Shown here: one piece after another, positions 30,039 to 38,632 of the stretch
Numbering within the stretch: the first letter of the stretch is position 1
Layout of the letters: the number at the start of each line of letters is the position of its first letter
NCBI RefSeq assembly: GCF_002288065.1
Contig: NZ_CP016773.1
Span: forward strand, 1,178,001-1,242,000
DNA length: 64,000 nt
Source of the DNA: Candidatus Planktophila sulfonica
Lineage (GTDB): Bacteria; Actinomycetota; Actinomycetes; Nanopelagicales; Nanopelagicaceae
Direction: 5' to 3'
Program-made: the position numbers and the translations under genes
Notes under the pieces: model-generated
Databases searched by the model: none
What the model was told of the DNA's origin: nothing
Seen by the model: the letters and a program-made list of their open reading frames with translations, nothing else

Positions 30039-30689
30039 ATGGAAATCAATACACCTGCAGTCATCGGACCGGGTGAATTTTTCCCTGTTGTCGGAGTCGG
30101 GCCTCACGAAAAGCCATGGCCAACCGGCGCTCAATATGATCCTGAACTTCTTGAAAATGGCGATCGTAGAAATGTCTTGGACCATTACAGATATTGGACA
30201 GTTGAAGCAATTGTTGCCGATCTCAATACCAAGCGACATAAACTTCAGATTGCAATTGAGAATTGGCAACATGATTTAAATATCGGCTCCATAGTTCGCA
30301 CAGCTAATGCATTTAACGCTTCTTATGTACATATTGTTGGCAAGCGCGACTGGAATAAGCGCGGAGCCATGGTGACAGATCGATATCTCACCGTTTTACA
30401 TCATCCAACAATCGCAGAATTTGCTCAGTGGTGTGCAGAAAATGAAACACCGATTATTGGAATCGACAATGTTCCAGGTTCAAAGCACCTTGAAGGTGCG
30501 CAACTTCCAGAGAAATGCGTTCTTCTCTTTGGCCAAGAGGGCGCAGGCATGTCTGATGAAGGCATCGCTATCTGCGAAGTTCTCTATGCAATCGAGCAAT
30601 ACGGGTCAACGCGTTCCATGAACGCATCTGCAGCCGGTGCAATAGCTATGTACCACTGGGCTTTGCAACACCTGCCCCGCAAGATTTAA
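30039..30689 (+). CDS. SpoU/TrmH-family RNA 2'-O-methyltransferase
   Basis: The 216-residue protein contains the three SPOUT motifs: NIGSIVRTANAFNASYVHIVG (motif 1, with the catalytic Arg), CVLLFGQEGAGMSDEGIAIC (motif 2) and IEQYGSTRSMNASAAGAIAMY (motif 3), forming the trefoil-knot SAM site. The N-terminal ~85 residues are a family-specific extension. Substrate RNA (tRNA or rRNA) cannot be decided. The preceding TTGGTA...TAGAGT promoter places the transcription start at or next to the ATG. Its stop codon shares TTAA with that of the convergent TPR gene. Confidence 0.88.
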   Translation: MEINTPAVIGPGEFFPVVGVGPHEKPWPTGAQYDPELLENGDRRNVLDHYRYWTVEAIVADLNTKRHKLQIAIENWQHDLNIGSIVRTANAFNASYVHIVGKRDWNKRGAMVTDRYLTVLHHPTIAEFAQWCAENETPIIGIDNVPGSKHLEGAQLPEKCVLLFGQEGAGMSDEGIAICEVLYAIEQYGSTRSMNASAAGAIAMYHWALQHLPRKI

Positions 30690-31651
30690 TCGTTTAAAGT
30701 AACAATCGCATCCGTTTCAGGATCATCTGCGAGAGCTTCTCGTACAGACTTGAGGCGTCGTTCAACTTCATCGGCCTCTTCCATTCGACCAAGTTGGCGC
30801 ATAACAGCAACCATACGGTCTTCGATATCGAGGATGAACTCAAAATCTTTTGGTTCATCTTCGGCAACTATCTGCAGAACGCCATCGAGAGTGGAAAGTC
30901 CGTCTTCTAGCTTTCCTAGAAGGATTTCAGCTTTTCCGAGTTCAAAAAGAGCAAAAGTTTCGCGGCGGTGATCGTGCGCAGTTTCAAAGACATCAATTGA
31001 TTTCTGCGCCGCTTCGAAGGCTTTCTCGCCTTCTTTAAGTTCGTTGTAGCAAGATGCAATCTTCTGGTCGCAGCGAGCAACGTGGATGATTTCTTTCTCG
31101 AGCTTAAACATCTTGCGCGCTTCTTGGAAACAGATGACTGCTTCGGAGTAATTCTTCAGTTCGCGCTGTGCGCATCCGATGAGGTGCATATCGTTTGCTG
31201 CGCCGATGTTATTTCCATCAACGAGATGTTCTTGTGAACATTCGTACATGGTTTCGATTACCTTTTCGTAATTCTTTGAGGCGTACCACCATTCGCCGAG
31301 AGTGCAGGCGAGTTCAAGAGCGATAGGAGATTTGTTCTCACGCAAAATAGAAACTGCTTTGCTCATTGCAGTTGCTGCTTCATCCATACGCTTTAACTGA
31401 TTGAGGTTGTATCCAATTGCAGAATATGCCTGAGCTAATCCTTCACTTGGCGCTGATGCTCCGAGTTCAGAGAAGATATCTCGCGCAGTTTCAGCGAGCG
31501 CGAGCGCCTCGTCATATTGGCCGCGAGCAAAGATGCGCGCAGAAAGTTCGTAATAAGTATTTGCTCGTTCTTCACCGTGGACTTCGGGGATTCGATCCCA
31601 GAGCATCTCTTCAGTTACGAGCTCGTCCTGGCCTTCGTCATCACTCATCAA
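30686..31651 (-). CDS. Tetratricopeptide-repeat protein
   Basis: The 321-residue soluble, acidic protein consists of about six TPR-like helical hairpins, e.g. ANTYYELSARIFARGQYDEALALAETARDIF, AQAYSAIGYNLNQLKRMDEAATAMSKA, and ANDMHLIGCAQRELKNYSEAVICFQEARKMF (quoted in parts). No signal peptide or catalytic domain is seen, so it is probably a scaffold or an adaptor. A strong GGGGAGGT Shine-Dalgarno sequence fixes the start. It is divergent from the cbiM operon across 165 bp; the Fur-like operator there is 137 bp away and much closer to cbiM. Confidence 0.8.
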   Translation of the reverse strand: MMSDDEGQDELVTEEMLWDRIPEVHGEERANTYYELSARIFARGQYDEALALAETARDIFSELGASAPSEGLAQAYSAIGYNLNQLKRMDEAATAMSKAVSILRENKSPIALELACTLGEWWYASKNYEKVIETMYECSQEHLVDGNNIGAANDMHLIGCAQRELKNYSEAVICFQEARKMFKLEKEIIHVARCDQKIASCYNELKEGEKAFEAAQKSIDVFETAHDHRRETFALFELGKAEILLGKLEDGLSTLDGVLQIVAEDEPKDFEFILDIEDRMVAVMRQLGRMEEADEVERRLKSVREALADDPETDAIVTLND

Positions 31652-31787
31652 AAGACCTCCCCTTGCTTCGTTCTAGCGCTTCCTACTAGGACTCGAGATT
31701 CACACACACTAGACCTAACGCCCAGGATGGGGCCGATATTTCCCTGCGAGAGGCGTGAGAATCTAGTCTTCTGCCTTCCAGATGCAG

Positions 31788-31804
31788 ATGCAAATGATTT
31801 GCAT
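31788..31804. promoter_or_regulatory. Fur-family operator-like perfect palindrome in the cbiM promoter (Nur/Zur-like)
   Basis: ATGCAAATGATTTGCAT is a perfect 8-1-8 inverted repeat. It contains TGCAA-N5-TTGCA, the core I recall for boxes of the nickel regulator Nur in Streptomyces, and it also has the AAATGATTT centre of Zur-type boxes. It directly abuts TAACCT, the inferred -10 box, and so fills the 17-nt promoter spacer. A repressor bound here would block transcription of the ECF transporter. Confidence 0.65.
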
Positions 31805-31810
31805 TAACCT
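31805..31810 (+). promoter_or_regulatory. Leaderless -10 box of the cbiM operon
   Basis: TAACCT lies exactly 6 nt before the cbiM ATG at 31817 and immediately follows the palindromic operator. No Shine-Dalgarno site is present. Confidence 0.55.
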
Positions 31811-31816
31811 TCTTCC

Positions 31817-32494
31817 ATGCATATTCCTGATGGGTTTATCGATATCCCTACGTCGACCGCCTTTGCCGCCCTTGCGGCAGCCGGAGTCGCTCTCTCAATT
31901 AAGGGAGCGAAATCGACTCTCGATGAGAAGACAGCTCCTCTTGCAGGACTTACTGCGACATTTATCTTTGCAGTTCAGATGCTCAACTTCCCCGTCGCTG
32001 CAGGAACTAGTGGCCACTTACTTGGAGGCGCACTTGCTGCCGTTCTTGTGGGGCCGTATGCGGCAACGCTTTCACTTACCGTCGTTCTCTTAATGCAAGG
32101 TCTCCTCTTTGCAGACGGTGGATTAACAGCAATTGGTCTCAATGTATTTAACATGGCGATCATCGGAGTCTGGGCTGGCTATGGCGCGTTCTTGCTTCTT
32201 CAAAAGATTTTGCCGTCATCAAAATTCTCCACAACGATTTCTGCAGGGTTAGCTGGATTGCTCTCAGTCCCAGCAGCTGCAGCAGGATTCGTATTGCAAT
32301 ACTCAATCGGTGCAAATGCAACATTCTCGGTCTCTGCAGTTTTGACAGCAATGATTAGTACTCACGTTCTTATCGGAATCGGTGAAGCGCTCATTACAGC
32401 TTTTGCAGTTGGCGCAGTTCTCGCGAGTCGTTCTGATTTGGTTTACGGATACAAGGGCGAGAAGCAAGCTCTCGAAATCAGGAGCGCATCGTGA
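31817..32494 (+). CDS. cbiM: ECF transporter substrate-specificity component CbiM/NikM (nickel/cobalt)
   Basis: CbiM is the S component of group I energy-coupling-factor transporters for Ni2+ or Co2+. The 225-residue membrane protein begins MHIPDGF; in this family the N-terminal His2 together with an invariant internal His coordinates the metal. It has ~6 transmembrane helices, a typical FPVAAGTSGHLLGGALAAVLVGPYAATL block and a GLTAIGLNVFNMAIIGVW block. The residues alone do not separate Ni from Co. The operator just upstream, the lack of a cobalamin riboswitch and the PDGLE partner slightly favour nickel. It overlaps the PDGLE gene by 4 bases (GTGA). Confidence 0.93.
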   Translation: MHIPDGFIDIPTSTAFAALAAAGVALSIKGAKSTLDEKTAPLAGLTATFIFAVQMLNFPVAAGTSGHLLGGALAAVLVGPYAATLSLTVVLLMQGLLFADGGLTAIGLNVFNMAIIGVWAGYGAFLLLQKILPSSKFSTTISAGLAGLLSVPAAAAGFVLQYSIGANATFSVSAVLTAMISTHVLIGIGEALITAFAVGAVLASRSDLVYGYKGEKQALEIRSAS

Positions 32495-32793
32495 AGAATA
32501 AAAACTTTCTACTTGCAGGCCTGCTTGCCTCTCTCTTGCTAGCTGGCGTCGCATCTTTCTATGCATCTTCTAGTCCTGATGGTCTTGAGAAAGTTGCAGA
32601 AGATATTGGATTTATCGATTCAGCAAAAGATCATGCAAATGCTGATGGCGCTCTCGCAGATTACGGAGTGAAGGGAATCGATAACCCTCGCTTCTCAACG
32701 GGTGCTGCGGGAGTTATTGGAGTCTTAGCTACAGGGGTTATTTCAACTGGCTTATTTATGCTGGTCCGCCGTAAGTCAGGTTCAGAGAAATAA
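32491..32793 (+). CDS. PDGLE-domain protein, CbiN/NikN-like ECF transporter subunit
   Basis: The 100-residue protein has an N-terminal transmembrane helix (FLLAGLLASLLLAGVASFYA), then the diagnostic SSSPDGLEKVAEDIGF motif, an extracytoplasmic loop and a second helix (GVIGVLATGVISTGLFMLV). This is the usual two-helix small subunit needed for metal uptake by CbiM/NikM transporters. The start is a GTG overlapping cbiM. Its TAA at 32791 overlaps a possible non-canonical start of the next gene. Confidence 0.9.
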   Translation: MKNKNFLLAGLLASLLLAGVASFYASSSPDGLEKVAEDIGFIDSAKDHANADGALADYGVKGIDNPRFSTGAAGVIGVLATGVISTGLFMLVRRKSGSEK

Positions 32794-32852
32794 AGCCGCA
32801 TACTCAGGATTTAGATCTCGTTCACACCCACGGCCACCACCACGGCCACGAT

Positions 32853-33608
32853 GTGGGTGAAAGGCTTTATCTACACAGACACTCTGTGACTCATCTACTT
32901 CCATCACACATCAAAATCCTCGCGGTTCTGGCCTTTATCTTGGTCGCAGTTTCTACTCCAATTACGCGTTGGCAGACTTTTATCGCTCTCTTTGCATTGG
33001 TGATTGCCGCTGCGTTCTTCAGCAAGATTCCTCTGCTTCTTCTCTTCAAGAGAGCACTCATCGAAATTCCATTCGTCTTCTTCGCAATCCTTATGCCTTT
33101 CTTTGGCGAAGGTGAGCGTTTTGAAATCGCCGGTATCCAGCTCTATCGCGAAGGTCTATTGGCCGGTACTTCTATCGTTGCCAAAGGAAGTCTCGGGGTA
33201 CTTGCGGCAGTAATCCTTTCTACGACGACAACTGCGCGTGAAATTCTCCGTGGACTTGAAAGACTTAAATTGCCGACAGTCATGGTGCAGATTGCATCTT
33301 TCATGTTGCGCTACGTCAACGTAATTAGCGATGAGATGGAGCGCATGAAGATTGCGCGCGAATCTCGTGGATTTATCGCCACCGGAATTAAGCATTGGAA
33401 AGTAATCGCCACATCTGCGGCTGCTCTCTTTATCCGTTCTTACGAACGCGGCGAGCGAGTTCACTTGGCGATGCTTTCACGTGGTTTCGATGGAAATTTG
33501 CCGTCGCTTGGAAATCCTGTAGTTACAACTCGTCAGTGGTTTACCGCTCTATCTCTACCTGGAATTGCACTATCCACATCACTTCTATTTCTTGCGATCG
33601 GTTGGTAA
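32853..33608 (+). CDS. cbiQ: ECF transporter transmembrane coupling component CbiQ (5' end uncertain)
   Basis: The T component couples the S component to the ATPase. From the GTG at 32853 it has 251 residues with ~5 transmembrane helices and the two coupling-helix motifs of the family, the A-R-G type ARESRGF and the second LAMLSRGFDG. The N-terminus LYLHRHSVTHLLPSHIKILAVLAF aligns with the start region of CbiQ proteins. The frame is open further upstream to 32775 and there encodes HTHGHHHGHD immediately before this GTG, but contains no ATG, GTG or TTG; the most likely true start is an ATA at 32790 overlapping the stop of the PDGLE gene. The GTG has no Shine-Dalgarno site. Confidence 0.85.
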   Translation: MGERLYLHRHSVTHLLPSHIKILAVLAFILVAVSTPITRWQTFIALFALVIAAAFFSKIPLLLLFKRALIEIPFVFFAILMPFFGEGERFEIAGIQLYREGLLAGTSIVAKGSLGVLAAVILSTTTTAREILRGLERLKLPTVMVQIASFMLRYVNVISDEMERMKIARESRGFIATGIKHWKVIATSAAALFIRSYERGERVHLAMLSRGFDGNLPSLGNPVVTTRQWFTALSLPGIALSTSLLFLAIGW

Positions 33609-33611
33609 AGC

Positions 33612-34355
33612 ATGAACACAACACCAAGTCTGCAGATTTCAAATCTCGCCTTTGCCTACCCAGATGGCAACCAAGCGCTTTACGGCGTGAACCTCACAAT
33701 CAGTAAGGGTGAGCGAGTAGCCCTTCTTGGTCCTAACGGTGCCGGTAAGACAACGCTTGTCATGCATATGAATGGAATTCATCCCACGATGCAGGGTGAA
33801 GTCAGAATTGCGGGCGAGCTCGTTGATGCAAAGAATAAAGAGACGCTCAAGCAGATTCGCGCCAAAGTAGGAATCGTTTTCCAAGATCCAGATGACCAAC
33901 TTTTCATGCCGACCGTTGGCGAAGATGTTGCTTTCGGTCCATTCAATATGGGACTTCGTGGAGATGAATTAAGTGCAGTAGTTGATGAAGCTCTGAGCCA
34001 AGTTGGAATGCTTGAATTTAGAGATCGCCCACCTCACCATCTCTCATTCGGTCAGCGTCGTCGCGTGGCTGTTGCAACCGTGCTGGCTATGAAGCCAGAG
34101 ATTCTTGTTATGGATGAGCCTTCTTCAAATCTTGATCCAGCTAGCCGCCGCGAATTGGCAGAGATTGTTCGATCATTAGATGTCACTATCGTCATGGTGA
34201 CGCATGATCTTCCTTATGCACTCGAACTCTGCGAGAGATCAGTGATTCTTTCCGGTGGAATCATTGTTGCTGATGCACCTACGCGAGAAATTCTTACCAA
34301 TGCCTCACTCTTGGCATCGCATCGCCTCGAGCTACCCGTTGGATTTACGCTGTAA
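33612..34355 (+). CDS. cbiO: ECF transporter ATP-binding component CbiO
   Basis: The A component powers nickel/cobalt uptake. The 247-residue ABC ATPase has Walker A GPNGAGKT, the Q-loop [24 protein letters not shown] (the DPDDQLF pattern is characteristic of ECF ATPases), signature [13 protein letters not shown], Walker [14 protein letters not shown] and switch His in [14 protein letters not shown]. It starts 3 bp after cbiQ and completes the four-gene cbiM-PDGLE-cbiQ-cbiO operon. Only one ATPase is present, so it should act as a homodimer. Its 3' end overlaps the convergent EamA gene by 24 bp. Confidence 0.95.
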
Positions 34356-35231
34356 TAACTTGATTCGCTCTTGAGCAATCGCAGCGCCCAGCAATACCAC
34401 TAGAGCCCCAACTGGTTCATGCCAGGTTACTTTCTCATTCAAGAAGATAACTCCCACAATCACCGCAACGAGCGGTGTTAAGTAAGTGACGCTACTTGCA
34501 ATCGCACTTCCTGCAATCTCCATCACTCGGAAGTTCCAGAGGTATGCGAAACCACTTCCAAAGACACCAAGCCCGAGCATTCCAAGAAGCGGGCCAATTT
34601 TGTATTCGTCTTTAGCGATTCCATCAAAGAGATAGAAAGGCAGAAGCGTTGCTGCGGCCAAAGTTAGTTGGGTCGCGACAATCGATTCTGGCTTTAATTT
34701 ATAAGGCATAACAAATCTGCGGGTATATGGATATGAGATTCCATAGCAAGCAACCGCAGCTAACAGAACGAGGATTGCCCAGAGCGGGTTATCTCCCAAT
34801 CCTTTCCAAGCTCCGAGAACTGTAAGTACTCCGAGGAAGCCGATGAATAATCCGAATATTTGGAAGGCCTTTGGCTTCTCTTCGCGATTAACAACCAAGA
34901 TTGCAATCAAGGTCATCAGCGGTGTAACTGCATTGATGATGCCTGCAAGAACTGATGTCACTTCTGTTTCAGCAAGAGCAAAGAAGATTCCAGGAATTAC
35001 ATTGAGCAGCAGAGCCACGATCCATAGGTGAAAGAGAACCTTGCGATCGGTTGGTAGTCGGAAACCGCGAAGCTTTGCAACAATCAAGAGCGTTGCCGCA
35101 CCTAGGGCGCATCTTCCGAATGCGACTCCGAAAGGAGTCAGGAATTCAAGACCGAGTTTGATGAAGATAAAGGAACAGCCCCAGACAATTCCTACAGCGA
35201 TATAAGTAGGAATCCAGGACTTATTTTTCAT
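34332..35231 (-). CDS. EamA/DMT-family membrane transporter
   Basis: The 299-residue protein has ten hydrophobic segments in two EamA repeats of five, e.g. YIAVGIVWGCSFIFIKLGLEF at the N-terminus and ASSVTYLTPLVAVIVGVIFL in the second repeat. The GCSF and LTPLVAVIVG patterns are typical of RhaT/PecM-type drug/metabolite exporters. Substrate unknown. The ATG lies only 18 nt from the 3' end of tRNA-Lys on the same strand, and TATCTT lies exactly 6 nt upstream of it, so translation may start on a leaderless transcript. Confidence 0.88.
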   Translation of the reverse strand: MKNKSWIPTYIAVGIVWGCSFIFIKLGLEFLTPFGVAFGRCALGAATLLIVAKLRGFRLPTDRKVLFHLWIVALLLNVIPGIFFALAETEVTSVLAGIINAVTPLMTLIAILVVNREEKPKAFQIFGLFIGFLGVLTVLGAWKGLGDNPLWAILVLLAAVACYGISYPYTRRFVMPYKLKPESIVATQLTLAAATLLPFYLFDGIAKDEYKIGPLLGMLGLGVFGSGFAYLWNFRVMEIAGSAIASSVTYLTPLVAVIVGVIFLNEKVTWHEPVGALVVLLGAAIAQERIKLLQRKSNG

Positions 35232-35243: not shown

Positions 35244-35249
35244 CAGGTG

Positions 35250-35322
35250 TGGGCCCTGTCGGGCTCGAACCGACGACCCACGGATTAAAAGTCCGTTGCT
35301 CTACCGACTGAGCTAAAGGCCC
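35250..35322 (-). tRNA. tRNA-Lys (anticodon TTT)
   Basis: The minus strand folds into a complete 73-nt cloverleaf: acceptor GGGCCTT/AGGGCCC, D stem GCTC/GAGC, anticodon stem ACGGA/TCCGT with loop CTTTTAA, and T arm GTCGG-TTCGAGC-CCGAC, discriminator A. The TTT anticodon reads AAA/AAG. CCA is not encoded. It lies between tsaC and the EamA gene on the same strand. Confidence 0.95.
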
Positions 35323-38295: not shown

Positions 38296-38368
38296 GTCCC
38301 CATCGTCTAGGGGCCTAGGACATCGCCCTTTCACGGCGGTAACACGGGTTCGAATCCCGTTGGGGGCA
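38296..38368 (+). tRNA. tRNA-Glu (anticodon TTC)
   Basis: A 73-nt cloverleaf: acceptor GTCCCCA/TGGGGGC, D stem GTCT/GGAC (with one G-T pair), anticodon stem TCGCC/GGCGG with loop CTTTCAC, and T arm ACGGG-TTCGAAT-CCCGT, discriminator A. CCA is not encoded. Confidence 0.95.
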
Positions 38369-38404
38369 CTCGAGGTAGCAAGAAGTACGGCTTTGATTTA
38401 TCAA

Positions 38405-38478
38405 GGCCCGGTAGCGCAGTTGGTTAGCGCGCCGCCCTGTCACGGCGGAGGTCGCGGGTTCAAGTCCCGTCCGGGTCG
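38405..38478 (+). tRNA. tRNA-Asp (anticodon GTC)
   Basis: A 74-nt cloverleaf: acceptor GGCCCGG/CCGGGTC, D stem GCGC/GCGC, anticodon stem CCGCC/GGCGG with loop CTGTCAC, T arm GCGGG-TTCAAGT-CCCGT, discriminator G as is usual for tRNA-Asp. It is 36 nt after tRNA-Glu and followed at once by a strong terminator. Confidence 0.95.
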
Positions 38479-38480
38479 CG

Positions 38481-38516
38481 AAAGAAGAGAGTGTCCACAC
38501 GCTCTCTTCTTTTTTT
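38481..38516 (+). terminator. Rho-independent terminator after tRNA-Asp
   Basis: A 14-bp stem (38481-38494 with 38499-38512, including one G-T pair) with a CCAC loop, running into a T tract to 38516. It closes the tRNA-Glu/Asp unit and separates it from tRNA-Phe. It is the clearest factor-independent terminator in the window. Confidence 0.88.
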
Positions 38517-38544
38517 AACATAGCAATAACTACAACTACATATT

Positions 38545-38618
38545 GGCTCGGTAGCTCAGTTGGTACGAGCGCGCGACTGAAAATCGTGAGGTCGACAGTT
38601 CGATCCTGTCCCGAGCCA
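38545..38618 (+). tRNA. tRNA-Phe (anticodon GAA)
   Basis: A 74-nt cloverleaf: acceptor GGCTCGG/CCGAGCC, D stem GCTC/GAGC, anticodon stem CGCGA/TCGTG with loop CTGAAAA (one G-T pair in the stem), T arm GACAG-TTCGATC-CTGTC, discriminator A. It lies after the terminator, so it needs its own promoter in 38517-38544, where I see no convincing box. Confidence 0.94.
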
Positions 38619-38632
38619 CAAGTGCTTCTTCA

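Follow-up and report, generated by a model that had tools for sequence, protein, structure and literature searches.

The window, i.e., the whole 64,000-nucleotide stretch analysed here, comes from Candidatus Planktophila sulfonica (Ca. Planktophila genus, acI), whose genome consists of a single 1.34-Mb contig. It contains a metal importer whose M, PDGLE, Q and O components are all encoded in one operon (Table 1). Pfam (CbiM, PDGLE, CbiQ and ABC_tran) and NCBIfam models confirm the order cbiM-PDGLE-cbiQ-cbiO that had been proposed in an initial annotation made from the letters alone. CbiM scores under every equivalog cut-off of the NCBIfam models, and nickel as its substrate is inferred from genome content.

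Table 1. Features of the importer locus (window positions).
Feature	Position	Strand	Basis
TPR-protein gene (divergent), constant on the left of the exchanged importer	30686..31651	-	
-35 position hexamer ATGCAG	31782..31787	+	aligned with 35 same-layout cbiM promoters
17-bp palindrome ATGCAAATGATTTGCAT, predicted Nur operator	31788..31804	.	8-1-8 symmetry; conservation at cbiM and NiCoT
-10 element TAACCT	31805..31810	+	TANNNT in 35/35 same-layout promoters
cbiM, ECF substrate-binding component	31817..32494	+	PF01891, E 1.2e-54
PDGLE protein (CbiN-like partner)	32491..32793	+	PF13190, E 1.1e-21
cbiQ, ECF transmembrane component	32853..33608	+	PF02361 / TIGR02454 above cut-off
cbiO, ECF ATPase	33612..34355	+	TIGR01166 above cut-off
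EamA transporter gene; several relatives, of both importer types, also have it to the right of the importer	34332..35231	-	

The palindrome ATGCAAATGATTTGCAT has perfect 8-1-8 symmetry with none beyond it, and it makes up the entire 17-bp spacer between the -35 and -10 positions. TCTTCC (31811-31816) then fills the 6 nt between the -10 element and the cbiM ATG (31817). Because only these six bases separate the two, the cbiM mRNA is probably leaderless, i.e., transcription is predicted to begin at the start codon or right beside it. The initial annotation had described the palindrome, the TAACCT element and this distance, and was accurate to the base. Its claim of a very compact promoter is upheld by conservation but not by a generic sigma-70 scan, which called no promoter at the site upstream of cbiM because the -35 is poor compared with TTGACA; the assignment of the predicted promoter rests on conservation. 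An extra TGCAG upstream of the palindrome could be read as a third half-site for overlapping dimers, but this is disfavoured, as it occupies the exact -35 position with a 17-bp spacer.

Symmetry alone proves little for the cbiM palindrome, because the window holds four perfect 8-1-8 palindromes where mononucleotide shuffles lead one to expect about one. The only exact match to TGCAAATNATTTGCA in the source genome is the cbiM site, and genome-wide sites were listed by a pattern search allowing up to three mismatches. No Rfam family matches within 31000-35000, which rules out a cobalamin riboswitch at cbiM and bears out the earlier statement that no B12 box is present.

We searched 201 genomes of the same family for CbiM and found it in 55. 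Of the 54 cbiM genes whose upstream regions were read, 51 carry a near copy of the box (at most two mismatches to TGCAAATNATTTGCA), so the palindrome is present in close relatives, where its absence had been named as grounds for dropping the initial reading. An identical layout is shared by 35 of these promoters: the site's end is exactly 13 nt upstream of the start codon, and a TANNNT -10 is kept in every one. At the -35 position, 26 of the 35 have NTGCAG or NTGTAG (TTGCAG in 14, ATGCAG in 7, TTGTAG in 4 and GTGCAG in 1). In an alternative layout (e.g., in G073), the box comes just 3' of a TTAACC -10, and the start codon has a Shine-Dalgarno sequence ahead of it. The predicted operator is therefore one that switches side of the -10, yet both layouts overlap the core promoter or start region. 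Outside the family, TGCRA-N5-TYGCA-like sites lie upstream at cbiM loci of Streptomyces, Actinomadura and other actinobacteria.

The box is not confined to cbiM. In most genomes without cbiM, a box search places it before a NiCoT permease gene (PF03824), which is present in 125 of the 201 genomes. When a weight matrix was built solely from cbiM sites, it detected the box in 69 of the 70 NiCoT promoters tested, at scores exceeding the 99% level of shuffled regions. We take the box to be real because it is conserved at a fixed promoter position before both importers (51/54 cbiM and 69/70 NiCoT), and the same conservation rules out chance symmetry as its explanation.

Only one genome, G020, contains both importer types, and there the NiCoT gene survives as a relic: about 95 codons, with a stop in frame. 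At this locus (L309, G020:C66, 2930-3350), the decayed NiCoT has its own Nur-type box, and directly behind it comes an intact cbiM preceded by a second box. Here the replacement of one importer by the other is seen midway.

Several genomes of both types share the neighbour order TPR gene, importer, EamA gene, and close relatives can differ in the importer between these neighbours. For example, the TPR proteins are 98% identical between G073 (cbi) and G091 (NiCoT), where 130 of 150 promoter-region bases are also identical, 100% between G061 (cbi) and G097 (NiCoT), 94% between the source genome (cbi) and G028 (NiCoT), and 92% between G016 (cbi) and G085 (NiCoT). Because such close pairs have opposite importers at the same locus, the comparison suggests that the importer has been exchanged there several times. 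The putative operator is retained while an unrelated importer family is swapped in behind it. A tRNA-Lys gene lies just past the EamA gene (window positions 35249-35322) and a Glu-Asp-Phe tRNA cluster lies further on (38296-38619); tRNA genes near the locus might aid gene replacement.

Nickel is the likely cargo of this importer, because the source genome encodes a nickel superoxide dismutase (NiSOD; TIGR02753), together with a probable maturation protease, and because no corrin-ring gene was found among its relatives. NiSOD is encoded in 178 of the 201 family genomes, and the corrin gene CbiC/CobH in none. The CbiM, CbiQ and CbiO families are named after cobalt uptake and certain NiCoT permeases transport cobalt (PMC2667541), which would fit an importer carrying cobalt for cobalamin under a cobalt-sensing Fur-family protein. 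We consider this very improbable: no corrin-ring gene was found in the 201 genomes, acI genomes are reported to lack cobalamin synthesis (PMC5301498), and the locus has no cobalamin riboswitch.

The source genome has two Fur-family genes, one Nur-like and one Zur, so a regulator of the kind that the initial annotation required does exist. The Nur-like gene (G000:74823-75230) best matches 3eyy, the Nur of Streptomyces coelicolor (E 2.9e-45, 55% identity), with the next-best match at E 9e-16. Its protein keeps all four CxxC cysteines and six of the seven histidines that we take to form the Nur metal sites along with these paired cysteines (positions 33, 70, 72, 86, 88, 90 and 126). The exception is H86, presumably one of the four M-site histidines, which is Leu here; all 20 relatives aligned also lack His at this position. 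Because of this replacement, the residues alone leave the predicted metal specificity unsettled. A GCV_T/YgfZ-like gene lies directly downstream, and S. coelicolor nur likewise stands before a ygfZ-type gene (PMC4531530).

The Zur-like gene (337642-338046, minus strand) matches 2o03 and 3mwm and lies downstream of a ZIP transporter gene. This pair carries its own distinct box, TGAAAATGATTTTCA; the Zur box TGAAAATNATTTTCA is at G000:338779-338793, 19-20 nt upstream of the ZIP-zur operon, with similar arrangements at L386-L400. A clear Zur box precedes ZIP in 15 of 30 Planktophila genomes, and position -5 is A in all 15, whereas it is C in all cbiM boxes. Because of this difference, the cbiM-type and Zur boxes are, as predicted motifs, separate classes. 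The initial annotation had likened the palindrome core to both Nur and Zur boxes; the likeness to the Nur box (TGCAA-N5-TTGCA) stands, and the Zur box is close but distinct at -5.

Could the site nevertheless be a Zur operator and the importer carry zinc? A Zur gene is present, and its box TGAAAATGATTTTCA and the palindrome core are alike except at two symmetrical positions. However, the A/C distinction at -5 is invariant, the genes behind the cbiM-type box belong to Ni/Co transporter families rather than being zinc genes, and NiCoT takes the place of cbiM under the same box. We therefore reject this identity as hardly probable. The earlier preference for nickel over cobalt or zinc gains from the same evidence: the frequency of NiSOD, the lack of CbiC/CobH, NiCoT under the same box and a separate box for Zur.

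Comparison of genomes establishes the box, its promoter layout and conservation, the regulator genes, sodN, the lack of corrin synthesis and the presence of the same box on NiCoT. The palindrome very probably serves as the operator at which a nickel-sensing Fur-family repressor of the Nur type controls the cbiM nickel importer. For Nur boxes, the consensus tTGCaa-N5-ttGCAA has been published (PMC3919588), and the core TGCAA-N5-TTGCA found here agrees with it, differing in the outermost pair. The Nur-like gene, the conserved box and the nickel-linked genome content likewise support the Fur-family nickel repressor that had been put forward as the simplest reading.

We infer a leaderless transcript, binding of the box by Nur, and nickel as both the co-repressor and the metal imported. 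When nickel is ample, a nickel-loaded Nur dimer would bind TGCAAATGATTTGCA and fill the promoter spacer, excluding RNA polymerase from the probably leaderless cbiM promoter. As nickel falls, Nur would be released and the CbiM-PDGLE-CbiQ-CbiO importer produced, and the imported nickel would mainly feed NiSOD. Against the Nur reading stand the replaced H86, the lack of a box at sodN, and the occurrence of the same core at the nur operon and sulfur genes, where its placement does not suggest repression. The initial annotation had suggested looking for the palindrome before the NiSOD gene; none was found beside sodN, so we discard Nur control of sodN.

The S. coelicolor Nur regulon (sodF, nikABCDE) shares with this system a Nur-type repressor, a TGCaa-N5-ttGCA core, a nickel-importer target, a nur gene beside ygfZ and NiSOD as a client. 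It differs in that its importer target is nikABCDE, whereas here it is cbiM-PDGLE-cbiQO or NiCoT. Further differences here are that the promoter is probably leaderless, with a spacer made up entirely by the box, and that one presumed M-site histidine is Leu. The actinobacterial Zur box TGAAAATNATTTTCA has the same Fur-family 7-1-7 symmetry, AT-rich centre and compact promoter position, but has A rather than the invariant C at -5 and is found before the ZIP-zur operon. NikR-controlled Nik/CbiMNQO and NiCoT importers also place a nickel repressor ahead of interchangeable importer families (PMC2667541), whereas the present box is of the Nur form, with a predicted sensor from the Fur family.

Nur-type control is already known, and the evolutionary series here is unusually clear. 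The swapping of importers behind a persisting operator provides a natural series, including a decayed old importer, for studying how regulation survives gene replacement. The reading also links an importer annotated automatically as cobalt transport to a different metal, nickel, and to a sensor, in a lineage that is among the most abundant freshwater bacteria and relies on NiSOD.

The same core also occurs at genes other than importers. The box TGCGAATTGTTCGCA (G000:73135-73149; L034, 5136-5150) has a thioredoxin-like gene on one side and the DUF4395-sulfurtransferase-DUF1416-nur operon on the other, and is kept in several relatives; nur autoregulation is possible. Mini-ORFs with Cys-rich tails (MQSIITWFFTRNRIVDFCLSTSCSC; in the source genome MFFIKRRVIDYCRITSTSCCL, G000:103474-103620) stand before cysK or an exported sulfurtransferase gene, with further examples in relatives (L127, L144, L121, L141, L146, L356, L357, L359 and L361). 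They are probably leaderless and look like cysteine leader peptides, and a TGCAA-N5-TTGCA-type box lies upstream of them. At the nur operon and sulfur genes, the distance from the box to the -10 downstream of it is mostly about 25-30 nt.

Either Nur acts at these sulfur genes too, or another regulator with a similar core does. If the latter also held at cbiM, the palindrome would be the operator of, e.g., a LysR-type sulfur regulator, which could explain why the core precedes both the Cys-rich leader ORFs with cysK and the DUF4395-sulfurtransferase-nur operon. We regard this as quite improbable, since nearly every nickel importer, in either of two unrelated families, has the box at a position suited to repression, and Streptomyces Nur is known to use the same core (PMC3919588). 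Nur itself might have a dual role, repressing the resident nickel importer and acting from upstream on the sulfur genes and the sulfurtransferase-nur operon; we think this unlikely, and if true it would tie nickel supply to cysteine and sulfur supply. Similar boxes adjoin a gene recognised by eye as rhodopsin-like at L116, L128 and L138, and at L116 and L138 the box lies between the rhodopsin-like gene and an MFS-like transporter gene.
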